From: Deltaproteobacteria bacterium
GTDB lineage: Bacteria; Desulfobacterota; Binatia; HRBIN30; CADEER01
Length of the DNA stretch: 64,000 nt
Assembly: GCA_029262455.1 (NCBI GenBank)
Contig: JAJCZJ010000014.1
Location: 62,001-126,000, forward strand
Direction: 5' to 3'
This document shows positions 6,545 through 58,448 of the stretch, piece by piece (position 1 is the stretch's first letter; each line of letters opens with the position of its first letter). A model generated the notes under the pieces. It worked only from the letters and a program-made list of their open reading frames with translations, had not been told where the DNA came from and made no database searches. A program made the translations under genes and the position numbers.

Positions 6545-6797
6545 TGCGGGGTACGGGGTACAGGGTACGGGGTACGGGAAAAGACTTAGTAGCAGGGTAC
6601 AGGGTACGGGGAAAGACTGAGCTGCCCCCACATCCGCGGCGCGTAACCCGACACCCTAAGCCATACCCCGCAACTGCACCCTGTACCCTGTACCCCGCTT
6701 CTGTACCCCGTACCCTGTACCCCGTACCCCGTACCCCGCTTCTGTACCCCGTACCCTGTACCCCGCATTTTGTCCCCGCAACTCAGAAAGGACCCAC
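6545..6797. repeat. GGTAC-rich direct and inverted repeats
   Basis: Left arm (6545-6611) consists of GGTACGGGGTACAGG-type units. Right arm (6676-6768) consists of their reverse complement (GTACCCTGTACCCC units), so the arms could fold into a long imperfect hairpin. Within the right arm a unit of 41 bp is tandemly duplicated, starting at 6691 and 6732. The element sits between the oxygenase stop and the SDR start, where it could act as a terminator or recombination-prone repeat. The SDR ribosome binding site (AGAAAGGA) lies at its right end. Confidence 0.75.
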
Positions 6798-7628
6798 ATG
6801 CCAGACCTCAAAGGCCAAATTGCAGTCGTCACCGGAGCTAGTCGCGGTGTCGGAAAAGGAATCGCTCTCGGGCTCGGGGAAGCCGGTGCCACCGTGATCA
6901 TCACCGGCCGAAGCATGACCGACGCAGGCGGCGACCGCCCCGGAACGATCCAAGCGTCGGCCGAAGAAGTCACCGCAATCGGCGGCAAGGGCATTGCGAT
7001 GCGATGCGACCACAGTGTCGACGAAGAGGTCGTCGAGCTCTTCAAGAAAGTTGAGAGCGATCACGGCCGCATTGACATCTTGGTGAACAATGCGTTCTCC
7101 GCTCCAGATCGCCCGATCTTCGAAGGCGCATTCTGGGACTACCCAGTCGAGCTCTGGGACCAACTGATGCACGTCGGCTGTCGCGGCCACTACGTCTGTA
7201 GCCACACCGTCGCACCGATCATGGTCAAGCAAGGCCGAGGACTCATCGTCAACGTCTCATCGTTTGCCGGCATGAGTTACGTCTTTAACGTCGCCTACGG
7301 CGTCGGCAAGGCGGCGGTCGATCGCATGGCCAAAGACATGGCCGTCGAGTTGCAGCCGCACGGCGTAACTGCTGTCTCTTTGTGGCCCGGCGTCGTGCAG
7401 ACAGAGTACCTCAAAGCAGTATCCGAACGCGGCGAGGTTCCCTTCGCTCTAACCAACGGTGAGTCACCACAGTTGTCCGGACGTGCAGTCGCCCACTACG
7501 CAGCAGACCCGGAACGAGAGAAGAAGAGCGGAGAAGTCCTGATCGTCGCCGACGTCGCCAAACAATACGGCTTCACCGACATCGATGGCCGTCAGCCGGG
7601 GACTATACTGGAACAGATGGCGCCATAG
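6798..7628 (+). CDS. Short-chain dehydrogenase/reductase (SDR), DHRS1-like
   Basis: A 276-residue classical SDR. The cofactor motif TGASRGVG is at 12-19, the NNA motif at 97-99, the catalytic Ser at about 154-155 and the Y167-x-x-x-K171 pair in YGVGK. The pattern around the active site (SSFAGMSYVFNVAYGVGK) and the long segment after the cofactor motif resemble the DHRS1-like subgroup rather than fatty-acid FabG. It should catalyse NAD(P)H-dependent oxidoreduction of a carbonyl or alcohol in the cytoplasm. AGAAAGGA precedes the ATG. Its co-orientation with the carotenoid oxygenase suggests, but does not prove, action on an apocarotenoid or aromatic aldehyde. Confidence 0.9.
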   Translation: MPDLKGQIAVVTGASRGVGKGIALGLGEAGATVIITGRSMTDAGGDRPGTIQASAEEVTAIGGKGIAMRCDHSVDEEVVELFKKVESDHGRIDILVNNAFSAPDRPIFEGAFWDYPVELWDQLMHVGCRGHYVCSHTVAPIMVKQGRGLIVNVSSFAGMSYVFNVAYGVGKAAVDRMAKDMAVELQPHGVTAVSLWPGVVQTEYLKAVSERGEVPFALTNGESPQLSGRAVAHYAADPEREKKSGEVLIVADVAKQYGFTDIDGRQPGTILEQMAP

Positions 7629-7822
7629 GCGGCGGCGCCTATGGCGAGTCGAACCAATCGACATGGGGCGCTGCGCGACCGTCAGAACGCGGCGGCGTCG
7701 CTTGTCGAAGGTCGAAGAGTCGAAAGTTCTTAAGGGAGCGACGCACTGCGCTCAGGCTACCTCTCGCGCGGCGGCGCCTGCGTTGGCGAGACGGAAAGTC
7801 GCGAGGTCCGCCACTTTCGACG

Positions 7823-11900: not shown

Positions 11901-11954
11901 GGAAGCCGCTCTTTCAAGATCAAGAGACCGACCATGCCCTCGACATGCCAATGA
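8928..11954 (+). CDS. Secreted ELWxTDGTxAGT-repeat protein, copy 2
   Basis: 1,008 residues with signal peptide (AFIGTMFVVAWSAVASGQA). It has the same layout as copy 1 at 1742-4768: about 14 ELWxTDGTxAGT blades, a Myxococcus-type Cys repeat (CGNGVLDAGEQCDDGNN), a Cys-rich linker and the same tail domain. The last 75 or so residues are close to identical to copy 1, apart from the final few residues (TMPSTCQ). The conserved leader upstream fixes the ATG. No enzymatic motif is visible. It converges on the OmpA gene at 12016 with a shared hairpin terminator between them. Confidence 0.85.
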   Translation: MKRAPLDSIRAFIGTMFVVAWSAVASGQAIPTLLKDINTLSASSEPGEVTVMGGLAFFAATGSDAGREVWISDGTSAGTMLLKDINPGTANANPHSFVVGSGLVYFSAIDDTTRQFYQSDGTEAGTVPAVGAVPPLPDDSTLDLPNGTTLFVDPLVIAPGFDTVWRTDGTPPGTFELCCVEPTRLLESGGLGFVSSDGIPSFPDPIVPPALTRTDGTTGNTITLLEEAVSELTDLGGTLLFAANDPTLGNELWSSDGSVAGTQILADLNPGSADSSPFGLGVAGTDLYFGARDPTLGAELWKTDGTVPGTVFVKDIHSGAADSDPTTIGALAGKALLSANDGVFGVEPWSSDGTSAGTNLVLDINDATDPSSPDYLGSGANLLMFAASDSTPTNRKLWVSDGSETGTVLLGAFGPGINSVMTVEFGGSLLFSAAHGSLGPELWKTDGTLAGTVLITGNDPGPFASIPSNPIVAGDKAFFRVSGTDIGHELGVTDGTEAGTFIVKDISPGIFSSFPRFFAAIADRVLFQASGTLWISDGTEAQTVQVHPFVRVVSQIVVLDQIGYFFGDDALGDNTTGAELWRTDGTEAGTFLVKDINPGFPGSAPLGPPASQTNMVAHNGTLYFYAKSEFWRSDGTAAGTTLVKDIAIGPVAAVGTTSIVIVDGIMYFAASDFLGERELWRSDGTEAGTYKVKDIRPFPGAPEIDQLSAVGDLLYFSADDGAHGFELWRSDGTEAGTVLVDDIQSGSVSSFPDNLTELDGSLFFTASTPAFGREVLRISCGNGVLDAGEQCDDGNNQSGDCCSATCGLETSACSNNGCSVGTCNAGVCEATASLCDAVLGRSFSAIDRANSPAKRRVKVTAASAAGALALSGDPSATGATLEVATDGANPTSQTFTIPAGLAPNGGPGWKQLGSRGYQYKDSKNANGPVRRISITQSGSGRTKIRANIRGAGLNIVPPDPGTEGHLRLLIPGGSNYCANFGGSAGGLVSNRGSRSFKIKRPTMPSTCQ

Positions 11955-22406: not shown

Positions 22407-23126
22407 TCACTCATCCAGCACCTCCGCAGCGGCCACCGTGATGTTATCCGCCCCGCCTCGGGCATTGGCCAAATCGATCAATCGGCGACAAACAACCTCG
22501 AGATCGGTGTCTTCCGACGTCGCTAGAATCTCCGGATCCGTCACATAGCCCCAGAGTCCATCAGAACACAGGAAAAATCGGTCACCGGGGCGAAACTCCA
22601 CCGGTCCAAACCGACCGACCGCGACCTCCTCCTCCAAACCGAGCGCACTGGTGAGATGGTTGCGCCCGTACTCGGCCGACGGCGAGCCGCCGTCGCGGAC
22701 CGCGTCGGACCACACCGACTGATCATCCGTCAGCCGATCGATCTCAAATCCACGGATCCGGTAGGCGCGCGAATCTCCGACTTGCGCCAACAACGCACCG
22801 CTCGGCGCCAACAACAGGGCCGTACACGTGGTCCCCATCCCCTCCATTTCGGGATCCTCTGCGCTCTTGGCAATGATATCCCGGTTGGCGCGTAGAACCC
22901 ATTCGGCAACTTGCTGCGCCTCGCCGGTACTAGACTCCAAGAAGGCCTGCTTGATCGCCGTCACCGCAGTCGAGCTCGCAACTTCACCAGCAGCCGCCCC
23001 GCCCATGCCGTCGGCAACGACAACGATAGCCGAGTTCCCGCTCGAAGCTTCAGCGAAGCAAAAACTGTCCTCGTTTCCCGTGCGAACACGACCGACGTCT
23101 GTCGCTGCGGTCAAGCGAAATCTCAT
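22407..23126 (-). CDS. PP2C-family protein Ser/Thr phosphatase
   Basis: 239 residues from ATG 23126 (AGGGA site 7 nt upstream); an in-frame start six codons earlier is less likely. It has the PP2C metal-binding motifs: ATDVGRVRTGNEDSF near the N-terminus, VVADGMGGAAAGE, then CSDGLWGYV and a final ARGGADNITV. All key Asp and Gly residues are present, so it should be an active Mn/Mg-dependent phosphatase that removes phosphate from Ser/Thr. No signal peptide, cytoplasmic. It follows the kinase at 23271 (144 nt gap) and precedes the degenerate-kinase protein, so it most likely reverses that kinase. Confidence 0.92.
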   Translation of the reverse strand: MRFRLTAATDVGRVRTGNEDSFCFAEASSGNSAIVVVADGMGGAAAGEVASSTAVTAIKQAFLESSTGEAQQVAEWVLRANRDIIAKSAEDPEMEGMGTTCTALLLAPSGALLAQVGDSRAYRIRGFEIDRLTDDQSVWSDAVRDGGSPSAEYGRNHLTSALGLEEEVAVGRFGPVEFRPGDRFFLCSDGLWGYVTDPEILATSEDTDLEVVCRRLIDLANARGGADNITVAAAEVLDE

Positions 23127-23270
23127 CCCGTTTCCCTGCGGCAATCGAGGACGGATCCTCGCCCGTTCACCCGTAAGCCGTCAACCATTCCCAACGACCG
23201 CTCGCTGCGAGCCGCGGGGAGCGTGCGGCACTCCACCAATCGCCCTGTGCACAAGCTCTTCATTTCTGCT

Positions 23271-25634
23271 TCACCGTGAGCGACATTTCTTGACAACGGA
23301 ACAACCCGACGCGTCACACCTCATCCGACACTGCACTCCCATCGGTTTGACAACGCCACCTGCAAACGTCTCGACCCGCGTAAAATCGACCGTAACGTCT
23401 TCCGCCCCAGTCGAGGACACCCCCTCGGCAACACAAGTCATGGTTTGTCCACGACCCGCATACGTGACCTCGCGCGAGGCGCAGTACTGACGCGCCAACT
23501 GCGCCGCGGCAGACTGGGGCGGCGGCGACAACTTCCGGCCGGCCGGTCTTGGAACCGCCGTCGGCCGCGCTACAGGCTCAGCTGCGGCCGCGCGCACTGG
23601 CAGCATCCAGATCTTCTCGGTCGATCCGCCTTGCGAATCACTCGCCACTAGCTTCAAAGAATGCCGCCCCTCGATCGCCTGATCCCATCGGCCACCGCAT
23701 GCACCGGTCGAGGACAACGGCCGCCCCGCAACATACCAACGGCACGTCACTCGGTCGCCGTCTGGGTCGAGCGGTGTCGCGATACTCACCGTCATCGAGC
23801 CGCCCGCTCTAACACTCGCCGGATTGAGCGCCGGCCCCCCAGTGATTTCCGGAGAGCGATTCACCTTTTTGGGCGTTGGTCGAAGACGCCGGGTTGGCGT
23901 GTGGCGCGGCGTCGGGCGTTGGGTCCGGGTGTTCGTCCGCCTCGCGGTCGGCACAATTGCTGCCGCATCGACCGTCGGCAATGCGCGCCGCGTCGGTGTC
24001 CGAGTCCGCACAGCTTCGCGCGTTGCCGTACGGGTCGACGTCCGGCCGCGCGTTGGAGTCAGCGAACGCGTCGGCGTCTTGCTGGCCGTTGCCGTCGCAA
24101 CCGTCGGGGTCTGCGACGGAGCAGACTTCGTAGCCTCGATTTCTCTCTCGGCCGCCAGCGCTCGACGGTACGACGCTTTCGCTTCGCGCAGAGAACGGCT
24201 CGCGTCGCGAGCCCAAAAGACGCTGCGCAAAGATTTCGCCTTTTCTAGAAACTCGATCCCATTTTTCAAATCCGTATCAGCCGAGCGTACGTGCGAACGA
24301 TCGCGATCCTGAATCTCAACCGACAAGGCCTGCCCTTCTGTCAGCAGGGTCTCGGCTTCCGCTAATGCTTGCCGCAAACGCGCCGACATCTCCGCGGGAG
24401 TCGGCGCCTCCCCGCCTGAAGGCGACGGAGTCGGAGTCGGCGACTCGATCGCAGCCACGATCGCCACCCCGGTCGGCGCCGCCGTCGAAGAATGAGTTCG
24501 CGATCCCATCCCGCCGCCGGCGATCGCCCAAAACGCAACGGCCCCGAGCACCACTACGCCGAAAGCCGCGGCCGCAACCATCCAAATCCGACTGGAGGTC
24601 TCGTCTTCGACGAGCGAGTCCCGCAGAGCTTCGGAGAGTTCCTGGCAAGATCCAAAACGCTTGGAAGGGTCCGGGTCAATGCCACGCTCGATGACCGCCG
24701 CAAGCTTCTTCGGCACATCCGGCGCAAGCGTGCGTATCGGGGTGAACTCGCCAAAGTTGCGCTCGACAGCCCGTCGCGCGCGGTCCGACGACCGTTTACT
24801 TTCCTCAGGGTCGAAGTCCAGCGACAGTGGTAGATACGGACGCTCTCCAGTCAGAGCCTCGTACAACACGACACAGAGCGAGAACAGGTCGGAGCGCTGA
24901 TCGACGTTCGCCGGTGCGCCGATCTGTTCCGGTGACATGTAGGCCGGGGTTCCGGCGCCACGGAAGGTCGATTTCGTCGCCCGCTTCGACGTCCCGTGCT
25001 GCGCGATCCCGAAATCGCCTACCTTATATACGCCGCCCGTCGCGCAAAAAATGTTTTCAGGTTTGATGTCGCGATGAAGAATATGCTGGCCATGCACGTA
25101 GTCGAGCGCTTCCGCCACCGCCAAACCAACGGCAACCGCGTCCTCACTGCTCAAACGTTCGTCGCGTTTGAGGCGGTCGCGCAGCGTACCTCCCTCAATC
25201 AGCGGCATCACAAAGAACGGCTGGTCGCCATCCTCACCGTAGTCGTACACCCGGACGATGCCCTGATGTTCTAATGGATGAATCTGTCGCGCCTCGTCGC
25301 GGAACTTGCGCAAGAATGTGTCGAGCTCGTCGTCCTCGAGATCGTGCACGTTGAGCGTTTTAACCGCGACCCGCGTACCGAAATTGTGGTCGAAGGCCTC
25401 GTAGACGCGCCCGAATCCGCCCTTCCCGATCTGCGTGATGATCTCGTAACGATCGTTCGCACCGAGAAAGCGCTTCCCTCCCTTTGCCCGTCGACCCGAA
25501 TCGACTTGGGTCGGCAACACAGTGCGGCGCTCCCCACTCGGGGCCACCGTCGGCGCTGCCTTGCCCTTGCCCCCGCGGCCGCGGCTGGTCACCGGGACCG
25601 TTTGCCCTGGCGGTTTTTTCTCGTCGTCCACCAT
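23271..25634 (-). CDS. Transmembrane Ser/Thr protein kinase with extracytoplasmic Ig-like tail
   Basis: 787 residues. The cytoplasmic Hanks-type kinase domain spans about 62-340, with Gly loop GKGGFG at 70-75, Lys92 in VAVKTL, HRD at 187-189 with Lys191, DFG at 207-209 and SPE at 234-236. It therefore looks catalytically complete. A transmembrane helix lies at about 350-373. Beyond it come a helical segment rich in Glu/Ala, an Arg-rich Thr-Pro linker, an Ig-like domain (ITGGPALNPASVRAGGS, later DPDGDRVTCRWYVAG) and a C-terminal Cys-containing domain (MGVQCRMRCD). The tail presumably senses or binds something in the periplasm. It is placed between the unknown protein at 25715 and the PP2C gene. 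Confidence 0.92.
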   Translation of the reverse strand: MVDDEKKPPGQTVPVTSRGRGGKGKAAPTVAPSGERRTVLPTQVDSGRRAKGGKRFLGANDRYEIITQIGKGGFGRVYEAFDHNFGTRVAVKTLNVHDLEDDELDTFLRKFRDEARQIHPLEHQGIVRVYDYGEDGDQPFFVMPLIEGGTLRDRLKRDERLSSEDAVAVGLAVAEALDYVHGQHILHRDIKPENIFCATGGVYKVGDFGIAQHGTSKRATKSTFRGAGTPAYMSPEQIGAPANVDQRSDLFSLCVVLYEALTGERPYLPLSLDFDPEESKRSSDRARRAVERNFGEFTPIRTLAPDVPKKLAAVIERGIDPDPSKRFGSCQELSEALRDSLVEDETSSRIWMVAAAAFGVVVLGAVAFWAIAGGGMGSRTHSSTAAPTGVAIVAAIESPTPTPSPSGGEAPTPAEMSARLRQALAEAETLLTEGQALSVEIQDRDRSHVRSADTDLKNGIEFLEKAKSLRSVFWARDASRSLREAKASYRRALAAEREIEATKSAPSQTPTVATATASKTPTRSLTPTRGRTSTRTATREAVRTRTPTRRALPTVDAAAIVPTARRTNTRTQRPTPRHTPTRRLRPTPKKVNRSPEITGGPALNPASVRAGGSMTVSIATPLDPDGDRVTCRWYVAGRPLSSTGACGGRWDQAIEGRHSLKLVASDSQGGSTEKIWMLPVRAAAAEPVARPTAVPRPAGRKLSPPPQSAAAQLARQYCASREVTYAGRGQTMTCVAEGVSSTGAEDVTVDFTRVETFAGGVVKPMGVQCRMRCDASGCSVVKKCRSR

Positions 25635-27465: not shown

Positions 27466-28310
27466 CGAAGCCGAGCCTAGCACAGACCGGAGTCACGAGG
27501 CCCGACCATCTGCCCGCACGCGTCGCACCGCCGCTCTCAAACAAGAGCTGCCAAGTGTGCCGAAAACCTCTCGATGTACACCAAGCTGTTCGCGGCGTCT
27601 GCGCAGCACCACACTGCAATCGCCAGCATCTACAGCGCAACCTCCAGCAATCCGCACACCGCGCCATGCAAGCGCTGGCCAACTCCGCCGCGGCTCTTCG
27701 GCCCAGACTCAAAGGCGAAGAGAAGTGCAATCTACGCAATCTGGTCGTGCCTGCGAACACCCGCAGATTGACACGGCTGTCGAAACGCCGCCGCAACGCC
27801 TTCGAGGCGAAGATGTGGTCCGACCTGGAGGAGATCGACTTTTCAGCAACAGCGGCTGCGACAACCACACCAGCCGACGTGTCCGATGTTTCTCGCGACG
27901 CCTGTGGAACTTGTCGAGGATTCTGCTGCGCCTGGGGCGGCACTCACGCTTTCCTCGGCAAGACGACCCTCGCCCGCATTGCCACCGAGCGATCGATCAC
28001 AAACCACACAGAGCTCGCAACACTGTACTTCGACTTGTTGCCGGAACGTAGCTACTCCGGTTCCTGCGTCTTCCACACGCAGCGCGGTTGCGCCCTCCCC
28101 AGGGATCTGCGCGCGGACATTTGTAATTCATTTGTATGCGGCGGACTGCAAGCGTATCTCACGGACGAGTCGGGCGGACGGCCGCAACCGCAATCCGCTG
28201 GGCCAGTCATCATGGCGACGACCGGAGACAAAATCATCCGCGCCGCGAGATCGACCCAGGACGGACCCGCAGCCCTTCGCCTACCAGTTTCCGGCCGGCG
28301 CCAGCCGTGA
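27462..28310 (+). CDS. CxxCxxCC-domain protein (YkgJ-type metal cluster)
   Basis: 282 residues beginning at TTG 27462, 4 nt overlapping the previous stop, with GGAG seven bases upstream. The N-terminal part has a zinc-ribbon-like set (SCQVCRKPLD, then CAAPHCNRQH). The C-terminal half carries DACGTCRGFCCAWGG and, about 60 residues on, CVFHTQRGCALPRDLRADICNSF in pieces, which matches the CxxCxxCC zinc/iron-chelating family (PF03692). Such proteins bind a metal or Fe-S cluster; their biological role is mostly unknown. Its stop overlaps the GTG start of the kinase, so translation is likely coupled. Confidence 0.75.
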   Translation: MTKPSLAQTGVTRPDHLPARVAPPLSNKSCQVCRKPLDVHQAVRGVCAAPHCNRQHLQRNLQQSAHRAMQALANSAAALRPRLKGEEKCNLRNLVVPANTRRLTRLSKRRRNAFEAKMWSDLEEIDFSATAAATTTPADVSDVSRDACGTCRGFCCAWGGTHAFLGKTTLARIATERSITNHTELATLYFDLLPERSYSGSCVFHTQRGCALPRDLRADICNSFVCGGLQAYLTDESGGRPQPQSAGPVIMATTGDKIIRAARSTQDGPAALRLPVSGRRQP

Positions 28311-30136
28311 GTCCGCGGAGGCGAAAGCCCGCGCCACCGACCGAACGCGGAGACTCCGCGAAGCCGGCCGCGAAAACACAAGTCGCCGACCGAGGCGCTC
28401 CGCCGACCATCGCAGCTGGAAAACCACCGACCGGAGGCGACCCCCCGCCCCGAGGCGAACCATCGAGCCGCGAGCCGTGGGATGATTTCGACATCATCGA
28501 GGAAGTCGGTCGCGGCGGCATGGGGTTCGTTTATAAGGCGCACCAGAAAAGTCTCGATCGCATCGTCGCCCTCAAGGTCCTCGCGCCAGACCTCGCGAGC
28601 GACAAGGAAGCGATCGAAAGATTTTTTCAGGGAGCGCGCGCTTCGGCCCGGCTCAACCATCAGAACGTCGTCACCGGCTACGCCGTCGGCGAAGACCACG
28701 GCCGGCACTTCTTCGCCATGGAGTTCGTCGACGGCGAAACCCTGGAAGATATCCTCGAGCGGGAACGAAGCCTCCGCCCAAGCGACGTCGTACGCGTAGC
28801 GCGGGCGCTCGCACGTGCTCTCGACCACGCAGAAGCCCGACACCTGGTTCACCGCGACGTGAAGCCCGCAAACATCATGGTGACCACCGACGGAATCGTT
28901 AAGCTCACCGACCTCGGGATCGCGAAGACCCTCGATAGACCAGGGATGACCGTCGACAACTCGGTCTTCGGGACGCCGTGGTACATCTCTCCTGAACAAT
29001 CGCGAAACGCAAAAAGCGTTGATATTCGAGCCGACATCTACTCACTCGGAGCCACTCTGTATCATCTCATCAGCGGCCATCCTCCGTTCGAGGCTGACAA
29101 CATGGTCGACGTACTTCTGGCGATGGAACGCGGCGACTTGCAGCCCCTTCCCGCGAGTGCAAATTGCCCGCCACAGCTGGTGTCGATCATCGAACGGATG
29201 ATGGAGCGAGACCCAGAGCAAAGATTTCAGTCTCCCCGCGATCTACTCGAAGCCCTCAACGCGATCGATCTGCCAGCAACCCGGTTCTCGTGGATGGACG
29301 AAGCCGCGCCGAGTCGAGCTGCACGCAGCGAACGCCCACGCAAGACGTCTCCCTCGCGAACCCCTGACTGGCGCTTGATCGCTGTCGGCGTCGTCCTCGC
29401 GACATTGGCCGCCTACGCGGCGGTCCGCTTCCTCGGAAAGGAGCCCGCCGAGCCTATCCCTGCGGCGATCACCCCCACCGCGGTTCCAGCAGCCACAGCA
29501 ACTCCGCCCACAAAACCCAAATCAGAAGCCAGCTATCTCGAAGAAGTGATCGCGGCCCTTGCCGCGCCGACACCGCGCTTGCGCGACGCAAAATTCCTCC
29601 TCGCAGACCTGCAAGCCTACTACCCGAAAAGCGAAACGTTTCGTCGCATGAACGACGAACTCGAGCGCGGCACGCTGGTCCTCTTTGAAGCCAAGGCTGG
29701 AGGCAGCCTCACCTCGGTTCCGGCTTGGGGCAAACTGGACCAGTCGATGACCGCCGGGGACGAATACCGCTTCGCTATCATCCCCACCCGCGCCTGCTAC
29801 ACCTACATCTTTCAGATCGACGGCGCCGCCATGAGCTACACGATCTTCCCCAGCGGGCAATATATGCCCGGGGTTCAGAACCCCCTCCCCGCCGGTCGCC
29901 TGCACTGGCTCCCGCCCAACTCCCGTCTTCCGCTCGACGATGCCACCGGGCTCGAACGGATCTACCTAGTCAGTCTCACGCATCCTCTCGACAGCCCGCC
30001 TTCACTGCTATCCGAGATTGCCAAAGACCCGGAAGCGGCGCGACAGAAACTCCGCGATCGCGGCCCAAACGGCGATTCCAACGAATCGTGCTTCGCCGAC
30101 GAGTGGCTCCATGAGTTTCGTTTCGCACACCGATGA
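28307..30136 (+). CDS. Transmembrane Ser/Thr kinase with C-terminal DUF4384 domain
   Basis: 609 residues if started at GTG 28307, which overlaps the previous stop as GTGA; the open frame itself reaches back to 28136 inside the upstream gene. A Pro/Arg-rich leader is followed by a kinase domain: GRGGMG at 68-73, Lys90 in VALKVL, HRDVKPAN near 176 and SPEQ. The metal-binding motif reads DLG instead of DFG, a tolerated change. A transmembrane helix (LIAVGVVLATLAAYAAVRFL) is near 365-385. The outer part ends in a domain like DUF4384 (AGDEYRFAIIPTRACYTYIF, later YTIFPSGQ), which also occurs in the next gene. DUF4384 is known mainly beside caspase-like and OmpA proteins. Confidence 0.88.
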   Translation: MSPRRRKPAPPTERGDSAKPAAKTQVADRGAPPTIAAGKPPTGGDPPPRGEPSSREPWDDFDIIEEVGRGGMGFVYKAHQKSLDRIVALKVLAPDLASDKEAIERFFQGARASARLNHQNVVTGYAVGEDHGRHFFAMEFVDGETLEDILERERSLRPSDVVRVARALARALDHAEARHLVHRDVKPANIMVTTDGIVKLTDLGIAKTLDRPGMTVDNSVFGTPWYISPEQSRNAKSVDIRADIYSLGATLYHLISGHPPFEADNMVDVLLAMERGDLQPLPASANCPPQLVSIIERMMERDPEQRFQSPRDLLEALNAIDLPATRFSWMDEAAPSRAARSERPRKTSPSRTPDWRLIAVGVVLATLAAYAAVRFLGKEPAEPIPAAITPTAVPAATATPPTKPKSEASYLEEVIAALAAPTPRLRDAKFLLADLQAYYPKSETFRRMNDELERGTLVLFEAKAGGSLTSVPAWGKLDQSMTAGDEYRFAIIPTRACYTYIFQIDGAAMSYTIFPSGQYMPGVQNPLPAGRLHWLPPNSRLPLDDATGLERIYLVSLTHPLDSPPSLLSEIAKDPEAARQKLRDRGPNGDSNESCFADEWLHEFRFAHR

Positions 30137-30240
30137 GCAAGCATGGTATCGTCTTCAATTGAGGGATTCGTTTTTCGAACGTGCCCCAGCAGTCCGTTGA
30201 AAACCAGGCGCGCAGGCGCTGGGAGAGTAGGGAGTACTCA

Positions 30241-31308
30241 ATGACTGACAAACACACCATCGTCAGCAAGATCGCTATTCTCGTCTGTTCGATCGCGGCA
30301 GTCGCCTTCGCTGCGACGGCCCAAGCCAAAGACTTGGATACAATCCTCCGTGAGCTCGGAGGCGAACAGAGAGGACCGGCTTCAAGCGGGGTCGCAACAA
30401 AAGAGAAGAGCGACGCGCCACCGAGTTCCACCGTGCCAATTCTATTCGATCACGACTCGGCCAGCGTTTCTTCTGCTTCGCTCAGCCAGGTCGCGATCGT
30501 CGCTCAAGCCCTCCGCGACGGCTCACTGGCAGACTATCGCTTTCGTATCGAGGGGCACACCGATCAAACGGGCACGTCTTCGTACAACCAAGACCTCTCG
30601 GAAAGACGCGCCGCCGCAGTGCGACGCTTGCTCGTCGATACGCACGGGATTGCCGCCTCGCGTCTGGTCTCGCGCGGATACGGCGAAAGCCAACCATTGC
30701 GCGGAGTCTCGCAGGTCAGCGAGACCGGCCGCGCCAAGAACAGACGGGTTGTCGTCGTCCGGCTAGGCGGTACGACGGCCGGCGAAACCGCAGCCACCCG
30801 ACCCGGCCACGTCCCATCAGGCCAGCCTGATGGCCCACGAGCAGACGCGGCAGTCCAGGCACAAACGCCAGCAGAGTCCGTGACCATTCGTTTGCAGCAA
30901 CGCGGAGAAGCTGCGGCTCAGCTGATTCGACCCGGCGGCGTGTTGCGCACCGACGACGAGTACCGCGTGTCGTTCGAGGCCGCGAAAGACTCGTACATCT
31001 ATTTGTTTCAATTCGACTCGAGCGGCAACTCGCAAGCCCTGTTCCCGAATTCCGACCTGGCCCAGGGTTCCAATCCAGTGCGCGCCGGTCGGACGTACGA
31101 TGTCCCAGAAGGCTCCGGCTGGCTGACTCTAGACGGTGCCGCCGGAGAAGAGACGATCGTCGCACTAGCGTCACAGAAGGAGATTCCCAACCCGACAGCC
31201 GCCGCTCTTCAGGCCCTGTCGCGCGGCCCGCGCGCCCCGGTGCCGCTCGGCGGTAACCCGGCAACACCGGACCTCTCGGTGTCGACGTTCACCTTCCAGC
31301 ACCAGTAG
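30241..31308 (+). CDS. OmpA-DUF4384 envelope protein
   Basis: 355 residues from ATG 30241, with GGAG six bases upstream and a clear signal peptide (ILVCSIAAVAFAATAQA); an upstream in-frame start at 30181 would bury the signal. An OmpA-type peptidoglycan-binding domain follows (ILFDHDSASVSSASLSQ, EGHTDQTGTSSYNQDLSERR, GRAKNRRVVV). The C-terminal 130 residues form a DUF4384-like domain (RTDDEYRVSFEAAKDSYIYL, ALFPNSD). The shared DUF4384 module with the upstream kinase suggests that the kinase tail and this protein contact the same partner, or each other, in the periplasm. It sits between the kinase and the CHAT protease, 10 nt before the latter. Confidence 0.88.
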   Translation: MTDKHTIVSKIAILVCSIAAVAFAATAQAKDLDTILRELGGEQRGPASSGVATKEKSDAPPSSTVPILFDHDSASVSSASLSQVAIVAQALRDGSLADYRFRIEGHTDQTGTSSYNQDLSERRAAAVRRLLVDTHGIAASRLVSRGYGESQPLRGVSQVSETGRAKNRRVVVVRLGGTTAGETAATRPGHVPSGQPDGPRADAAVQAQTPAESVTIRLQQRGEAAAQLIRPGGVLRTDDEYRVSFEAAKDSYIYLFQFDSSGNSQALFPNSDLAQGSNPVRAGRTYDVPEGSGWLTLDGAAGEETIVALASQKEIPNPTAAALQALSRGPRAPVPLGGNPATPDLSVSTFTFQHQ

Positions 31309-39003: not shown

Positions 39004-40503
39004 TCAATCGAGTTGGCTGAGGTGGTTTCTCAGCGGGTTCGCCAGATCGAAGCCAAACAGCGCCGGGTCTTCCCCGATCACTGCAGCCGCAAAGATCTTC
39101 AGCACATAGTCCTTGGTCTCGTCCGGCATGCGGTTGCGGTACTCGCCGAGAAAGCGCCAATAGCTGCGGGCGGCAGGATTCTCGGGGATATCCTCGAGTT
39201 GATCCAACTTCGGGGCGACCCGGTGTTCTCCCCAGTTGTACGAAGCAATCACCAATAGGCCGGAAGCTTGGGCCAGGGTTCCATAAATGCTCCGCAGATA
39301 ACGCGCCGCCGCGTCCGTCGACTTCTCGAAGTCCAAGCGCTCATCCCTGGGATCGAGCATTTTCTCATTGGCGTAAGCGCCTGGATTCAACTGAAACATG
39401 ATCGCGGTCTTCGGGATAAACTGCCACATTCCCTTCGCCCGCCCCCAACGTGTCAGCGGGCCGATCGCGCTGGTGCTGAGATTGCTTTCCTGCAGAGCCA
39501 GATAAAAGAAGTGCGGTGGCAATCCGTGGCGGTGAAGGGAGCGGGCGATGTAGCGGGTATAGCCACGATCCTCCGCCTGGCGAACGGCCCCAATGAACCG
39601 CTGTCGGCCCGCCGCGGTCTGCCAATACCCCGCGATCGAGCGTTTCACACTCTCGACAAACCCCGCGGGCATGCTGAACTCACTCTCATTGAAGACCCGC
39701 GCCATCTTGTAGATCAGCCGCTCCTGAGGTCCGAGCTCGCGGTAAATCCCAAGCTCTTCGATGTAGCCGTCGTAGCGACGGGCCATCCTACGGCGAGTCT
39801 CTTGCAAAGCGCGCACCTGATCCGCCAGCGGCCCGCCTTCAGTCTTTTCGAGCAAAGTCTCGAGACGGACGATCTGCAGCTCGAGCGCGCGCATCTCGTC
39901 AAAGAGCCCACCGGCCGTGCTCTTCAAGCCCGCAAGCTCCGTGGCGATACGCTGCTGCGTTACCATTCCCGCGTCGAGTCGCCGCTGCTGGATAGCGCTG
40001 TATCCAACAACCCCGAGCAGGATGATCAGAACCGCCGCTGCAAACCCACCGTAAACCAGCCGCTGGCGAGCCAGGTGGTACTGAAGCTCCGGGTGCCCGG
40101 CGCCAGGGCTCGTCTCACCGCCGGCACGATCACCGTCCCAACTCGCGGTAGCGTCGTCTTCGACCTTCTCCTCCGCAACAGCGAGCCGGAGAACCGGTCC
40201 ATCGGGAGCAAGTTGGAGCTCGACAAAACGCTCCTCGATTGCCACCTCGTCGACGCGCTCGCCGTCGACGAAAGTGCCGTTGGTACTCTCGAGGTCGCGC
40301 ACCCACCAGCAACCATCTTCAAAGAAGACTTCAGCGTGCTCGCGGCTAACCAGCCCAATATCGATCTGGACCTCGCATTCTTCCCCACGGCCGATCACAA
40401 ACGAGCGAGAAAAAACCCGATCAATGCTGCCGCCCGAGAGATCCTCGACTCGAATCCTCGTCGCGCGGTCCAAAGAACGCCGCTCGCTCACACCAATTCC
40501 CAA
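39004..40503 (-). CDS. FHA domain fused through a membrane helix to a lytic transglycosylase
   Basis: 499 residues if TTG 40503 is the start; GTG 40491 is an alternative. Residues about 15-105 are a forkhead-associated domain (VIGRGEECEVQI, LVSREHAEV, DLESTNGTFVDG), which binds phosphothreonine. A transmembrane helix (YGGFAAAVLIILLGVVGYSAI) lies near 150-172, then a coiled coil, then a family-1 lytic transglycosylase SLT domain with the catalytic Glu339 in LALQESNLS and supporting AKGMWQFIPKTA and SYNWGEHRV. The enzyme would cut peptidoglycan glycan strands in the periplasm while the FHA domain reads phosphorylation inside. Such a fusion is unusual and ties peptidoglycan opening to the nearby kinases. 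Confidence 0.9.
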   Translation of the reverse strand: MGIGVSERRSLDRATRIRVEDLSGGSIDRVFSRSFVIGRGEECEVQIDIGLVSREHAEVFFEDGCWWVRDLESTNGTFVDGERVDEVAIEERFVELQLAPDGPVLRLAVAEEKVEDDATASWDGDRAGGETSPGAGHPELQYHLARQRLVYGGFAAAVLIILLGVVGYSAIQQRRLDAGMVTQQRIATELAGLKSTAGGLFDEMRALELQIVRLETLLEKTEGGPLADQVRALQETRRRMARRYDGYIEELGIYRELGPQERLIYKMARVFNESEFSMPAGFVESVKRSIAGYWQTAAGRQRFIGAVRQAEDRGYTRYIARSLHRHGLPPHFFYLALQESNLSTSAIGPLTRWGRAKGMWQFIPKTAIMFQLNPGAYANEKMLDPRDERLDFEKSTDAAARYLRSIYGTLAQASGLLVIASYNWGEHRVAPKLDQLEDIPENPAARSYWRFLGEYRNRMPDETKDYVLKIFAAAVIGEDPALFGFDLANPLRNHLSQLD

Positions 40504-45632: not shown

Positions 45633-47471
45633 TCAGTCGCCGCAACCCAAGAGAGCTGAATTGACCGCCCGAACCAAATCACTAATCGAAACCGTCCCGT
45701 CATTCCCTGAGTCTGCCGCCGTACATTGGTCAAGTTGAGCCCTGCCAAGAGCGATGTTTACCGCCCTGACCAGCTCGGAGACTGTCACCTCCCCACTCCC
45801 ATCGCAGTCGCCGGGGCATGCTCCTGTGCGCAGCACGAATCCGACCTCGTCCAGCAGGAACGCCGCAGGACCACTAAAGTCTTCCGGGACGTACCATTCA
45901 AATGTAATCCCGACCTCTTGGCCGACAAAGTCGGTCAGGTCGACAAGCCCGACGCGTTCGCCAGTATCGTCGACGTCTCCCGGTAACAGCCTCAGGAGCA
46001 CCTCGGAGTGAAGGGCGATGCCTCCGCCGGCCGGACGCACGTGCACGGCGAACACTCTCTCTTCAGTGGCACCAAACGTGAGATCCCATGCAGCGCGGTA
46101 GCTGAAACTCAGCACCGGGCGACCGGGCGGAATGACGACATCCTGACTGAGAGAAATCTCACCCGGCCCGTTCCCGTCGAATCCGGTCACAGCAGCCCAC
46201 GCCCCCTCGGTCGGCAGCACGGGGAAAAATCCAAACCCGAATTCCGATCCAACGCGCGCAGAGGATAGCGGATGTAGCGGGTCGCTGAGATCGACAACGT
46301 TCCAACCCGAAAGGTCGCCACGTTCAAATCCGCAGTTCTCAAACGGGCTGCCCCCTGATGCACAGTCCGATCCCAGGGTGACACGTTCGCAGGCGACACC
46401 GGCGTCCTCGAAATGCCCACAGTTGTTGGAGCCAAAGCCGGGAAACGAACACTCCGTCAAACTCGCTTCAGTCCCCGAACACGTAACGTCATCCATCCAG
46501 ATCGGACCGCTCCCTGCGCCAAAAAACGCTTCGCGAAACACCTCTGTGGCAGCGTCAAAACCCAACTGTCTGCACACAACATCGCCGTCGGAAATGTCCC
46601 AGAAATCATCACATACCGTTCCCCACTCGCCGGCGTGAAAGACCTCAACACGCCCTTCCGCCGCACTCGCGCCGTCGACCAGCCGGACCTCGCCCTCGAT
46701 TCCCGTCCCAATTCCACAGAAGACACCAGCATCCTCACCGTGGACGCAATCGTTGAAACCGAAGCCCGGGAAGGGGCACTGTGACAGCATCGCTTCACTC
46801 CCCACGCAGTTGACATCATCCATCCAAATCGGCCCGCTCCCCTCTCCGAAGAAGGCTAAAGAGGTGAAGTCGATGGCCCCGCCGAAACCCAACTGCCGGC
46901 AGACCACGTCGGCATCTTCGAGACCCCAAAAGTCGTCACAGACGGTCCCCCATTGACCATCGTGAAAGATCTCGACGCGGCCTTCGGAAGATGAAAATCC
47001 TCCCGCCAGACGCAACGCACCCTCGCCAGTGGCGCCGCTATTACAGATCACACTGGCATCTTCGGGATGCGTGCAATCGTGCACTCCAAACCCAGGAAAA
47101 GAACACTGGGTCAGCTCCGACTCAAAGGATGAGCAATTGACGTCGTCCATCCAGATCGGGCCAGTCCCCTGTCCGAAGAAGGAGAACGGCAGGGCCTCAG
47201 CTGCACCGGAGAATCCCAACTGCCGGCAAACGACATCTGCGTCCGCTATATCCCAGAAATCGTCACACACCGTGCCCCACTCACCGGCGTGAAATACCTC
47301 GACCCGGCCTTCCGCCGAGGTCAGACCACCTGCGAGTCGAACCGCGCCTTCAATCAACGGACCTCCGAAAGCTGGCGTTCCAGAAAATAAAAGACAAGAG
47401 AGGGCCGAAAATACCGCGCGATCCGACACGCACCCGATCCAGGATCGTTCTCGATCTCTTGTTCGCATCAT
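45633..47471 (-). CDS. Secreted protein with three SRCR domains and a dockerin-like pair
   Basis: 612 residues from ATG 47471 (a second ATG follows), with AAGGAG upstream. After the signal peptide ([18 protein letters not shown]) come three scavenger-receptor Cys-rich domains at about DNA 47040-47345, 46720-47025 and 46390-46695. Each has the [19 protein letters not shown] opening, VVCRQLGF, [10 protein letters not shown] and ending CxHxEDAxVxC, with the full Cys set. A beta-sandwich domain of the [14 protein letters not shown] type follows. The C-terminus is a complete dockerin-like pair ([17 protein letters not shown], then [11 protein letters not shown]). SRCR domains bind proteins and polyanions and are mainly known from animals. 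Likely surface-displayed ligand binding. Confidence 0.9.
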
Positions 47472-47608
47472 GGCTCTCCTTTTGATCGGACAATCGACGC
47501 ACCCATTGAAGGGATCGCCAAAGTGCCGACGGCTGCGGTAGATTCGCGCTACGACTCTGTAATTTGAACCCAAGAAGCACCGGCTCGGAGCCGGCGCTAC
47601 GAAACTTT

Positions 47609-50178: not shown

Positions 50179-51825
50179 TCAGCGCACTCTCTTCGAAACG
50201 GTCCTTCGCACCTCTGGCAAAGCCGCCGAGCAACCTACCGCGAAGGGGTCAGCGACGCAACGATCTTCCTGTGTAGGCGTCGCGGTGAATACCCGCGGCT
50301 TCGGCTCCGGTCGTTTGGCGACAGTCGGCCTTCGTGTGTTGACGGCATGGGTCGCGCGAGCCGTCGGCCTCGGCGTATTGACGACATTCGCTGTGCCGAC
50401 AGTCGGCTCCAACGCGTCGATCGCGCTTGCCGCCGGAGCGGTCGGCAATGTCGGCACAGTCGCAATGACCGTCGCCGTAGCAGTCACCTGGGTCGGAGTC
50501 GGAGTCCCGGCCGCATCTTCCGCCATCGGAACAGATTTCATCAACGTGCTCGCCTGCCCGCCGTCCGATCCGGCTCTACCACGGTGGTCCACTGCGGTAG
50601 GCTCCGACACCGTCGGCGCAAGAACCGACCCGGCAACCGGAGTCGAAGCGCCCGGCCCGCCGCGCGACAGAGGGCCAACACGCAGAGCACCGGATGAGAT
50701 CAACGCGACGAGCGCAATCCCGACGAAGACAAATCCCAGGGCGGCGGCAATCCCCTTCGCGTTCGGCCGCCCGCTCCCACCTCGCAGTTCGCGGAGCGCG
50801 TCACAAAACTTCCCGCAGGTTTGGTAGCGCCGCCCCGGGTCCGGATCCAACGCGCGCATCACCACCCGCTCGAGCTGTCGCGAGGTATTCGGTGCGAGTT
50901 TGCGAATCGGCACCGGGGGTTCGAAGGCAGCATCCAAGATCTTGCGAGCTGATTCGGGATGCGTCTCTGGGTCGAAATCGAGCGTTACAGTTCGATAGGG
51001 CTTGTCTCCGGTCAGGGCCTCGTAAAGCACCACACCGAGAGAAAAGACATCCGCACGCCGATCGACGGTACGCGGCGTGCCGATCTGTTCGGGAGCCATA
51101 TAGTTTGCCGTGCCGGCTCCGGCCATGATCGACTTCGTGGTCTTCGAACCCGGCTCTTGCGGAACACGGACAATCCCAAAGTCGCCGACCTGGAACCTCC
51201 CGTCGCCGAGGCAGAAGATGTTTGCCGGTTTGATGTCGCGATGAGCGACGACGCCGTTGCCATGCGCGAAGTCCAGCGCGTCGGCAACATCAACACCAAG
51301 GTCTATCACCTCGGCCTCGGTCAAAACGCTTCGCCTGCGTAGCTCGTCTTGGAGTGTGCCCGCTTCGACCAGAGTCATCGCAATGAAGGGCACCTTCGGA
51401 TCGTAGTCGTTAACCCGAACGATGCCCGGGTGCTCCAATCGCCGCGCCGTCTTGGCTTCACGGTCGAAGCTCTTGCGGAACTCCACCCGATCGAGTTCGT
51501 CGAGATCGGCGTCATCGATCACCTTGATCGCCACAGCGAGATCGAAGTGCTCGTCCCAGGCTTCGTAAACGGTTCCAAAACCTCCGCCACCGATACGCTT
51601 GATCAAGCGATAGCGACTTCCCCCAAGCTCAGGAAAGTCCGCGCGTGAACCCGCGCCCGGAGACCCAACGCGTGACGCAGCCTCCGCCTGCCCACCTCCC
51701 TCCCTCGGCTGATCCTTATCCGAGGAGTCGGGTGCGCGGCGCGTCGCAGCCGCAGGCGCGCGTTTGGTCTCCGCGGGCAGCCCGCCCGAGCGCGGCTTTG
51801 AGGTCTTGTGATCGTCTTCCGACAT
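50179..51825 (-). CDS. Transmembrane Ser/Thr protein kinase with short Thr-Pro tail
   Basis: 548 residues from ATG 51825; an in-frame TTG six codons earlier is less likely. A Pro/Arg/Gly-rich leader of about 65 residues precedes a complete Hanks-type kinase: GGGGFG at 79-84, Lys101 in VAIKVI, HRD at 195-197, DFG at 215-217 and APE at 244-246. One transmembrane helix (AALGFVFVGIALVALIS) follows near 375-395. The outer part is a 150-residue Thr/Ala/Pro-rich tail ending in a small Cys pair (CVADPFAVGCS) and a basic C-terminus. Unlike the kinases at 23271 and 28307 it has no obvious sensor domain. Confidence 0.92.
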   Translation of the reverse strand: MSEDDHKTSKPRSGGLPAETKRAPAAATRRAPDSSDKDQPREGGGQAEAASRVGSPGAGSRADFPELGGSRYRLIKRIGGGGFGTVYEAWDEHFDLAVAIKVIDDADLDELDRVEFRKSFDREAKTARRLEHPGIVRVNDYDPKVPFIAMTLVEAGTLQDELRRRSVLTEAEVIDLGVDVADALDFAHGNGVVAHRDIKPANIFCLGDGRFQVGDFGIVRVPQEPGSKTTKSIMAGAGTANYMAPEQIGTPRTVDRRADVFSLGVVLYEALTGDKPYRTVTLDFDPETHPESARKILDAAFEPPVPIRKLAPNTSRQLERVVMRALDPDPGRRYQTCGKFCDALRELRGGSGRPNAKGIAAALGFVFVGIALVALISSGALRVGPLSRGGPGASTPVAGSVLAPTVSEPTAVDHRGRAGSDGGQASTLMKSVPMAEDAAGTPTPTQVTATATVIATVPTLPTAPAASAIDALEPTVGTANVVNTPRPTARATHAVNTRRPTVAKRPEPKPRVFTATPTQEDRCVADPFAVGCSAALPEVRRTVSKRVR

Positions 51826-52156
51826 CCTGTTACCCGGCCCCAAGACTGTTCCGAACGGAGCAAACTCGCATTGCGTCTCGCGCTACAGCGAACCGACACG
51901 GCCCCCGGCCGCGAACTAGAACCCAAACACTCCCCTTCATCAAGGTCAGAAAATTCGCAAGGCTCGGCGCGCACCAGAGTGTCCGCTCAAGTCGCCCAAA
52001 CGACAACCCGCCATCTCCGCATCGCCCGTCGAATCAATAGACTCGTCATCTCGCGTACGTGTTTTCGCGTACGTTGACAGCAGACTGGTGATGGGATTAC
52101 GAAGGCCTAGATGTGACAATTCGTAGAATAGACACCCCAAGAGGAGGCAGTCCAAA

Positions 52157-56398: not shown

Positions 56399-56882
56399 TG
56401 GCGAACCTGTCTCCCTTACGTTCCACTGTCCAAACAGGAAGGGCCCAGCAACCGGCCCGACGGCTTCGAATTTGCTGAGAGACGTCGAACTTTCATCTCA
56501 CAAGAGCAGCAGCGCCCCTCAGAGTCTACTCACAGGAGGACCCGAAGCGAAACCCGCATACATCCCGATCAGGTCGGCCGGCCGTTACAACCTCGGCCGG
56601 GACAAAGACTTACCGAACGGCATCGGCGGATCAACTAGGGAAATCCCCTACAACAACTACGAACAAGCTCGACTGTCCGGGACCGACGTTCACTCGAATG
56701 CGCGGCGACGGACAGGCTTGAGGGAGATCGCCCGAGTGTCCGACGACCGGCGGAACTCCCGACGAATTCCTTGACTCACTCACCTATAGAGCTAGTATCC
56801 CGAAAGTCCTGAGCCCGTGGCAGGCATTGAGCAGACACTTCGCTCGCGAGGAAGGGCTCGTAGATCTGAAACGGAGTTGTCC
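56399..56882. other. Divergent intergenic region without supported gene
   Basis: About 480 nt between the caspase-like gene and the two-SRCR gene, both reading away from it. Open frames here look like shadows with biased composition but no recognisable motif. Promoters of both genes should be here; no clear boxes are seen. Confidence 0.4.
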
Positions 56883-58448
56883 ATGAGAGCGAAGCAACCC
56901 AACCAGACCAGCTATCTTGCTACACTGGTATCCCTCATCTTTCTTCTACCTTCGGCCGCGGATGCGCTCTTTATCACCGGCGGACCTTCGTACGAACTTC
57001 CCGAAGGGGCCACTTGCACAGTCGCTGGAAACCCAGCTTTGGCGAACAACGCGTCCGTCACCTGCAGCGGCATCGATCTCGACGCTCATACCCATGTCTA
57101 CTTCGGTATCCGCAACGACGGCAGTAGGCTCGGCAATGCCACTGACCGCAGCGGGCCAAGTGGCAATGAAATTTGGCGCTTCGTATTGAACGCGAACATG
57201 ACCATCGTCTATACGAGCACCACAACAATCAACAATGCCCTACTTGGCCGCAACCAGAGCGTGGATAGCGGTCTCACGCTGAGCAGTGAAGTCGGAAACC
57301 TGACCCCCATCCTCACCGGAGGCGTCCCTGCAGACAACGGCAGCAGCGATATCAGCGCACTCTTTCGCGTCGACAGCGCTGCGTTCGCCGTTGGAGTGGC
57401 TGTCGAAGCCGCGACAGAAGGTATCGAGGGGTTCGGCACGACGAACCCCCACATCTACGATCCGATCCATACGCCGAACAACACCGGTGGGAACATCTCC
57501 AGCGTCGATCTGGCGTTTTACTTTGCCGACTGCGGTGGACGTGACGCGACTTGCCCGGAGACGGACGTCCGGCTCGTCGACGGCGACACCGCCTCTGAAG
57601 GTAGAGTCGAAGTCTTCGTCGACGGCACGTGGGGAACAGTGTGCGACGACAACTGGGACCTGATCGAAGCCGAAGTCGTTTGTCGGCAACTCGGTTTCGT
57701 CGGCGCCGAGTCGGCGAACGGCGGCGCACTATTTGGCCCAGGCAACGCAGACCAACCGATCTTCCTCGATGACCTCAGCTGTAACGGGGAAGAAGGCAGC
57801 CTCCTGCAATGCCCTTCTTCCGGTATCGGCGTGACCAATTGCGAGCACGACGAAGACGCGGGTGTGGTTTGCGCCACAACCAACGTGCGTCTAATCGGCG
57901 GATCCTCCCGAGGCGAGGGTCGGGTCGAAGTCAACTTCGAGGGGCAGTGGGGCACCGTCTGTGACGACTTCTGGGGCATCGAGGACGCCAACGTCGTGTG
58001 CCGTCAACTCGGCTTTACCGGAGCGGATGCAGCGCCAGGCGAAGCCGCCTTCGGTGCCGGAAACGGTCCCATCCTGATGGACGATGTCCAGTGCGTCGGA
58101 GACGAAGCCGAAATCACGGCTTGCCAATTCAACGGGTTCGGGAACCACAACTGCGAAAGGGATCACACAGAGGACGCGAGCGCCGTCTGCAAGGCAGCCG
58201 TGTTGCCGACAGAAACTCCTGCGCCTGACACGCCCACACCTACCTTCACACCCGGCGGGACAACCTGCTTCGGAGACTGCAACGGAGACGGGCGGGTGGC
58301 AGTCAGCGAGCTGATCACAGCCGTCAACGGAGCTCTCTCGGGTAACATTTCGGCCTGCCCGGCGGCCGACCGCGACGGCAACGGGAGGATCACCGTCCCC
58401 GAGCTCATCACCGCCGTCAACAACGCACTCAGCGGGTGTCCGAACTAG
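56883..58448 (+). CDS. Secreted protein with two SRCR domains and a dockerin-like pair
   Basis: 521 residues from ATG 56883 (GGAG seven bases upstream); the frame opens at GTG 56817. After the signal peptide (LATLVSLIFLLPSAADA) is a beta-rich domain of about 200 residues (DAHTHVYFGIRNDG, FRVDSAAFAVGVAVEAAT). Two SRCR domains follow, each with GRVEVxxxGxWGTVCDD, [20 protein letters not shown] and a closing CxxDxxEDAxxVC. A short Pro linker leads to a clean dockerin-like pair: CFGDCNGDGRVAVSELI and DRDGNGRITVPELI. Layout is close to the gene at 45633. Probably surface-bound and ligand binding. Confidence 0.9.
   Translation: MRAKQPNQTSYLATLVSLIFLLPSAADALFITGGPSYELPEGATCTVAGNPALANNASVTCSGIDLDAHTHVYFGIRNDGSRLGNATDRSGPSGNEIWRFVLNANMTIVYTSTTTINNALLGRNQSVDSGLTLSSEVGNLTPILTGGVPADNGSSDISALFRVDSAAFAVGVAVEAATEGIEGFGTTNPHIYDPIHTPNNTGGNISSVDLAFYFADCGGRDATCPETDVRLVDGDTASEGRVEVFVDGTWGTVCDDNWDLIEAEVVCRQLGFVGAESANGGALFGPGNADQPIFLDDLSCNGEEGSLLQCPSSGIGVTNCEHDEDAGVVCATTNVRLIGGSSRGEGRVEVNFEGQWGTVCDDFWGIEDANVVCRQLGFTGADAAPGEAAFGAGNGPILMDDVQCVGDEAEITACQFNGFGNHNCERDHTEDASAVCKAAVLPTETPAPDTPTPTFTPGGTTCFGDCNGDGRVAVSELITAVNGALSGNISACPAADRDGNGRITVPELITAVNNALSGCPN

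Follow-up and report, generated by a model that had tools for sequence, protein, structure and literature searches.

An FHA domain joined across the membrane to an MltD-like predicted lytic transglycosylase: a probable accessory of type VI secretion

The 64,000-nucleotide stretch of DNA analyzed here (the window) encodes, at 39004..40503 on the minus strand, a 499-residue protein in which an FHA domain, a single transmembrane helix, and an SLT-type lytic transglycosylase domain are combined in one chain. We consider it probable that this FHA-SLT protein serves the type VI secretion system (T6SS) as an accessory, that is, as a membrane-anchored MltD-like lytic transglycosylase, with threonine phosphorylation controlling its recruitment or gating. 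The case is built on the architecture, topology bias, conservation, gene neighborhood, and co-occurrence described below, from which we infer recruitment, activation, and a need for the protein in secretion.

The open reading frame starts with TTG, and an in-frame GTG four codons downstream is an equally possible start. Pfam identifies FHA at residues 36–87 (E 3.7e-15) and SLT at residues 325–434 (E 1.1e-12), both above the curated cut-off, and the hydropathy profile has one peak, at residues 149–167. In the AlphaFold2 model (mean pLDDT 88.2), the strands of an FHA β sandwich span residues 15–107 (40183..40461, minus; predicted cytoplasmic), with R39, S53, R54, H56, and N75 in the Pfam core. 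A cytoplasmic linker of residues 114–145 (40069..40164, minus), modeled at pLDDT <50 and probably disordered, leads to a long helix, 141–220, that includes the membrane span (residues 149–167; 40003..40059, minus). The remainder of this helix and a second helix, 224–251, would form a periplasmic stalk (39751..39990, minus) carrying the mostly helical SLT domain (residues 259–498; 39010..39729, minus), also predicted to be periplasmic. Pfam, hydropathy, and the model agree with the original prediction that FHA and SLT are joined in one chain by a membrane helix.

Fold comparison matched the FHA part to Rv1747 FHA-1 (6ccd; Z 15.9, 96 residues). The best 50 Foldseek matches were to FHA domains only, and a second comparison gave the best match of the SLT part, MltD of Pseudomonas aeruginosa (8rhi; Z 19.1, 193 residues). 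The catalytic residue, Glu339 (39487-39489, minus), aligns with the ES motif of MltD structure 8rhe. By sequence and predicted fold, the protein is thus an SLT-fold, MltD-like predicted lytic transglycosylase with its catalytic Glu present, and it carries an FHA fold with the residues that we take to contact phosphothreonine (Gly-Arg, Ser, His, and Asn-Gly). It shares the SLT domain fold and active-site motif with MltD (8rhe/8rhi) but has a membrane helix, stalk, and FHA domain in place of the LysM repeats, of which Pfam found none in the window's protein.

The FHA domain most likely lies inside the cell and the SLT domain in the periplasm (N-in/C-out). The window's own copy has two Lys/Arg residues on each helix flank, so charge alone leaves its orientation undecided and its topology rests on the family. 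There, Lys plus Arg near the helix are more numerous on the FHA side in 76/81 members, fewer in 2, and equal in 3, and each of the 81 proteins has one hydropathy peak, save two with a weak second peak. Prediction therefore favors an inner-membrane anchor with the enzyme in the periplasm, and the kinds of domain in the window's copy agree with this. A placement of both domains on the same side of the membrane, which would have spoken against the original prediction, did not emerge when topology prediction was run.

The fusion belongs to a conserved family. When one genome was scanned for each species, 173 homologous loci were confirmed, of which 80 were analyzed; these come from 79 distinct genomes (one genome is behind two loci), and the alignment has 81 rows including the window. 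All 80 loci keep the whole FHA-helix-SLT architecture, save where contig ends cut it (in L013, L058, and L069, in or before the FHA part), and Pfam finds FHA and SLT in 10/10 chosen members. Because the architecture is kept throughout, the fusion is neither chance nor decay. The catalytic Glu is kept in 81/81 rows, and the FHA residues are nearly as constant (G38 78/78, R39 76/78, S53 79/79, R54 74/78, H56 79/79, and N75 78/81, denominators below 81 reflecting rows gapped at the column, including those cut at contig ends). The key motifs read as complete in the window's protein are therefore complete in the wider family as well; their loss in broader alignments was looked for and did not occur.

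How common the arrangement is depends on the scale. A unique fusion is rejected by the number of loci, and family members occur in many phyla, including Acidobacteriota, Rhodothermota, and Ignavibacteriota. Per genome the fusion is rare: a full-length FHA-SLT is present in 1/58 genomes of the relatives set, namely the window's own (the others have separate SLT or FHA matches, or none), in 13/116 genomes of one gammaproteobacterial family, centre included, and as a match in 4/197 Acidobacteriota including the centre, one of these (G283) in the SLT part only. The description of the arrangement as uncommon thus holds genome by genome but not for the family, which is established across phyla. In a maximum-likelihood tree of the 81 rows, the window sits on a long branch (0.92) in a 14-row clade with support 100/100, whose other members are labeled Rhodothermota, Bacteroidota, Gemmatimonadota, Chrysiogenota, and Aminicenantes; its top identity is 49%, to L008. 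This placement, with the absence from relatives, suggests that the gene arrived horizontally, possibly together with a T6SS.

VipB (PF05943), our T6SS marker, occurs in only 3/58 genomes of the relatives set, and the window's genome is among them. Two VipB copies lie at positions 147,898 and 151,178 of the same 172,861-base contig that carries the FHA-SLT gene at 101,007-102,503, so the window's copy is encoded with T6SS genes only in the sense of a shared contig, 45.4 kb from the nearest VipB. The cluster holds genes for PAAR-like, VgrG, ClpV-type ATPase, TssG, gp25-type TssE, ImpA_N, ImpE, TagF, IcmF (TssM), DotU (TssL), and VasE (TssK) proteins and an FHA-kinase fusion; the labels TssB and TssF were given from position and size only. 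Parts of a threonine-phosphorylation-controlled T6SS are present in this genome, and the FHA-SLT gene is outside the cluster. The FHA-kinase is a 453-residue protein combining FHA and Ser/Thr kinase (L122:7865-9226; C14:152865-154226) whose gene adjoins TagF and then TssM. The two VipB-type genes are separate and on opposite strands, each beside a TssB-sized open reading frame (C14:147156-152770; L122:2156-4169, 5794-7770).

Within the window, the CHAT, TPR, and FecR genes lie on the other strand from FHA-SLT. The FecR-domain gene, whose end is at 38973, converges with the FHA-SLT gene, and a gene that starts at 40713 diverges from it. For these reasons the FHA-SLT gene seems to stand alone and not to share an operon with the CHAT, TPR, or FecR genes. 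The original prediction had put it at the end of a kinase/CHAT locus, which would make it part of a local signaling or conflict system. The presence within 20 kb of three genes for kinases, one for a PP2C phosphatase, and one for a CHAT protein speaks for such a system; the opposite strand, the convergence with the last of the genes, and the CHAT seed search (0/80 homologous loci, 1/20 control regions) speak against it. We rejected membership in this locus on strand, neighbors, and the lack of a CHAT match in the 80 loci, and we regard the reading as highly unlikely. The system first proposed was probably the wrong one and the T6SS the better home. Against a T6SS role, the window's gene is 45 kb from the cluster, alone, and beside genes without T6SS domains, Pfam having found no T6SS families among 14 other window proteins scanned.

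In the window, a Ser/Thr kinase gene at 23271..25634 (minus) is a candidate upstream kinase, and a PP2C phosphatase gene at 22407..23144 (minus) is a candidate partner in the same threonine-phosphorylation circuit; two further Ser/Thr kinase genes lie at 28136-30136 and 50179-51843. The FHA-kinase of the T6SS cluster, outside the window, is another candidate upstream kinase. The direct coupling of kinase activity to peptidoglycan cutting that was first proposed is plausible.

Evidence for a T6SS role comes from the neighborhoods of the homologous loci, in which T6SS, PP2C, and kinase genes recur. Neighbors were sought by phmmer in all frames, with proteins of the window, its own contig, or the loci as seeds rather than curated models, and Pfam confirmation covers chosen examples. 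The controls were 20 regions from 20 of the same genomes, taken at fixed places (the start of contig C2 or base 2,000,001) and not at random; 4/20 are shorter than 14 kb. ClpV and Rhs matches were left out of the T6SS count in loci and controls alike. On this basis, a T6SS-type gene is found in 30/80 loci versus 0/20 controls, and in pieces of at least 14 kb in 19/34 versus 0/16. The count is 27/77 without the three loci that gave seeds (L008, L018, and L045, which belong to the 80 and necessarily match their own seeds) and 23/80 for the core genes alone (VgrG, PAAR, Tss). In five of the 30 positive loci (L017, L018, L029, L056, and L068), a DcrB-type gene is the only T6SS-type gene; counting DcrB, DUF2169, DUF3540, and PAAR-like genes as part of T6SS loci is partly an assumption. 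Among the controls, there was also a single match each of the ClpV type, to a kinase, and to CHAT. Ser/Thr kinase genes occur in 22/80 loci versus 1/20 controls and PP2C genes in 16/80 versus 0/20.

The linkage is often close. A same-strand gene of the kinds searched lies within 120 bp in 21/80 loci; T6SS-type genes lie this close in 15/80 (TssC-type sheath 7, DcrB 3, PAAR-like 3, VgrG 1, TssM 1) and PP2C genes in 11/80. In L045 (Desulfopila), the order is VgrG, DUF2169/pentapeptide, pentapeptide, DUF3540, PAAR-like, and FHA-SLT, after which come two genes to which Pfam gives no match, an opposite-strand FHA gene, PP2C, a gene left unscanned, and a kinase. In L008 (Rhodothermales), PAAR, Rhs, and pentapeptide proteins and a fused TssB-TssC precede FHA-SLT, and PP2C and kinase follow. 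An Acidobacteriota contig (L071) has TssK-TssL-TssM-FHA-SLT, with a gap of 22 bp ahead of FHA-SLT.

Effectors are often encoded beside VgrG, PAAR-like, or Rhs genes, and some FHA-SLT copies adjoin such genes. The protein could on that account be a T6SS effector or an immunity-linked hydrolase secreted against other cells; lytic-transglycosylase-like effectors have been proposed in a Pantoea hcp island (PMC3942780). The membrane helix, the conserved cytoplasmic FHA domain, and the long stalk fit a resident protein instead, the gene is also found beside TssM or sheath genes, and at E 1e-40 or better 76/79 FHA-SLT genomes contain just one match, unlike variable effectors. An effector is therefore a very improbable explanation.

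The association with T6SS extends to whole genomes. VipB is present in 67/79 distinct FHA-SLT genomes (33/40 plus 35/40 locus handles, with one genome behind two loci), and in 25/79 VipB and FHA-SLT share a contig, 0.1–35.6 kb apart. Among the 12 genomes without VipB, 5 have T6SS-type genes in the FHA-SLT locus, partly confirmed by Pfam (L012, L027, L034, L066, and L074). In 7/79 (L004, L005, L006, L024, L051, L060, and L067), no VipB was found and the locus showed no T6SS-type gene, which is no proof of absence because the completeness of these genomes is not established; three of them (L004, L005, and L006) belong to the window's own 14-member clade. A less biased, evenly drawn sample of 116 genomes, all of the family to which Thiocapsa roseopersicina (L039) belongs, has FHA-SLT in 13, VipB in 40, and both in 12. 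Here VipB accompanies FHA-SLT in 12/13 genomes and occurs in 28/103 without it (one-sided Fisher p 8e-6; 11/12 and p 2e-5 without the centre), p-values that are only a guide because the genomes are related. VipB occurs in 36 of the 197 Acidobacteriota and in 3 of the 4 with an FHA-SLT match including the centre; without the centre, 2/3 matched genomes have it (p 0.08), a sample too small to weigh and in which one of the two is the SLT-only match. The Acidobacteriota FHA-SLT loci give 22/24 with VipB versus 33/193 unmatched genomes (p 3e-13), but the 24 are related and were picked by similarity to the query, so we do not rely on this comparison.

A rival explanation is a general envelope-remodeling enzyme under Ser/Thr kinase control, acting in growth, division, or stress and only secondarily linked to T6SS. 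Such logic is comparable to that of mycobacterial FHA proteins, which act with PknB. The 7/79 genomes without a T6SS sign count in its favor and against a T6SS role; the 50/80 loci without a T6SS-type gene, many of which are short pieces, also count against that role. In Acidobacteriota of the L072 type, FHA-SLT is found among metabolic genes, unlinked to T6SS, with VipB elsewhere in the L072 genome; the window's gene, too, is away from its cluster. Kinase, PP2C, or FHA neighbors recur in 31/80 loci, with or without T6SS genes. Set against this are the adjoining T6SS-type genes in loci of several phyla and the strong co-occurrence with VipB, and no cell-division family was found among the chosen neighbors scanned with Pfam. 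We judge general envelope remodeling unlikely on balance, though it is the alternative we take most seriously.

If the protein is a T6SS accessory, its action can be outlined from the PpkA/PppA type of kinase/phosphatase circuit. The inner-membrane-anchored enzyme would face the peptidoglycan while its FHA domain reads phosphothreonine generated by such a circuit. A T6SS kinase would phosphorylate a partner, for which TssL, an Fha protein, and the kinase itself are candidates; in most members, a conserved juxtamembrane Thr of the enzyme could serve instead. Binding of that phosphothreonine by the FHA domain would gather or align the enzyme at the membrane complex, where the periplasmic domain would cut glycan strands and allow the membrane complex and tail to cross the wall. 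A PP2C phosphatase, encoded by an adjacent gene in some members, would switch the enzyme off.

The components of this scheme have precedents in separate proteins. A review names TagX and MltE, both from proteobacteria, as T6SS wall openers and PpkA, PppA, Fha, and TagF as control (PMC10433429). MltE, which serves the T6SS of enteroaggregative Escherichia coli, is a housekeeping enzyme anchored in the outer membrane that is brought to the membrane complex and whose activity the C-terminal domain of TssM stimulates (PMC10433429); in the available text of PMC10781749, it is named only as the E. coli example. FHA-SLT differs from it in a predicted inner-membrane anchor, a cytoplasmic phosphothreonine reader of its own, and, in part of the family, a gene within a T6SS locus. 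TagX of Acinetobacter, a peptidoglycan hydrolase of the inner membrane, has its gene in T6SS clusters and is needed for Hcp secretion (PMC5061870). FHA-SLT is likewise a predicted inner-membrane peptidoglycan hydrolase with T6SS surroundings in part of the family, but TagX, an L,D-endopeptidase, is predicted to have more than one membrane segment, and the accessible part of PMC5061870 mentions no FHA domain in it, whereas FHA-SLT is an SLT-fold predicted lytic transglycosylase with one.

With Fha1/TagH and the PpkA-PppA-Fha pathway, the family shares an FHA domain and, in part, T6SS surroundings and kinase/PP2C neighbors, and the window's genome has TagF and an FHA-kinase. In that pathway, Fha binds phospho-Thr14 of TssL, and its R30 and S46 are the cited analogues of the FHA contact residues (PMC3953482); Fha is described as cytoplasmic (PMC5995506), and a TssW-PpkA-Fha axis has been described (PMC12607579). 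Unlike Fha1/TagH, which is described without an enzyme domain, FHA-SLT spans the membrane and ends in a predicted wall-cutting enzyme. Assignment of the window's protein to the TagH kind of T6SS FHA protein was tried and rejected, the TagH model TIGR03354 giving 29.2 bits against a cut-off of 120.25 and T6SS_FHA_C giving no Pfam match at E 0.01. In the available text of two Pantoea papers, one of them PMC3942780, the FHA proteins are distinct from the lytic-transglycosylase-like effectors. A report of an FHA-SLT fusion was not found in the literature searched, which leaves out most subscription papers.

The family also offers a candidate site for the FHA domain. The linker between FHA and membrane is variable except for a GEHTMMIR-AF motif in most members, whose Thr is present in 77/81 rows; no other column ahead of the membrane has Thr in at least half of the rows. 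The +3 position is Ile in 45, Val in 24, and Leu in 4 (73/80), and some FHA domains prefer Ile, Leu, or Val there. A search for the motif pattern in the reading frames of 112 loci matched family proteins only (73/73). This conserved Thr is a possible FHA docking site, and the family would then have an intramolecular or between-subunit switch resembling that of OdhI, GarA, and Bdellovibrio DgcB, each an FHA protein that binds its own tail once this is phosphorylated; to our knowledge, none of these has a membrane-spanning wall enzyme. More tentatively still, the family may be a T6SS wall opener of many phyla in which a kinase phosphorylates the juxtamembrane Thr, the phosphorylated Thr engages the FHA domain of its own chain or of an adjacent one, and the stalks are drawn together so that cutting occurs only at T6SS assembly; we hold this version to be possible but doubtful. 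Alternatively, the motif may simply be an amphipathic segment.

The window's copy departs from this pattern. Its motif is degenerate, with Glu139 in place of the family Thr, which sets it apart from OdhI, GarA, and DgcB and counts against the T6SS role. By analogy with the phospho-mimic result for TssL (PMC3953482), FHA binding is unlikely to be restored by a Glu at this position, and in the window's protein the FHA domain would therefore have to bind another phosphoprotein. The other rows without the Thr are L058, which shares its genome with L026, and L060 and L067, in whose genomes no VipB was found.

The triggering of T6SS assembly by PpkA/PppA is only partly known, and the FHA-SLT family, which occurs beyond proteobacteria too, would join kinase control and wall opening in one chain. 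If the version with a docking Thr is correct, most members would be phospho-switches spanning the membrane, through which a kinase signal reaches a peptidoglycan hydrolase. The family permits a direct test of whether such a signal switches wall cutting at the assembly site.

Several observations lie to the side of this argument. VipB is less than 5 kb from FHA-SLT in 14 genomes, in 13 of which the copy is divergent (84–226 bits; G122, G082, G133, G114, G069, G062, G074, G063, G115, G078, G067, G072, and G113). In the copies scanned with Pfam (L008:6034-7866, L062:5940-7937, and L070:6409-7938), VipA and VipB domains share one chain, a fused second sheath-like protein beside the predicted wall cutter. 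Within the window, DUF4384 is found in an OmpA-domain protein (30238-31308), whose gene is followed by the CHAT/TPR gene, and, below the cut-off, at the end of the Ser/Thr kinase before it (28136-30136). Two ELW-SDGT repeat proteins of about 1000 residues, at 1742-4837 (minus) and 8928-11954 (plus), look alike by eye. The proteins at 45633-47573 and 56817-58448 have repeated Cys-rich segments (EGRVEVF...GTVCDD) that by eye are SRCR-like, and their ends are, again by eye, dockerin-like.
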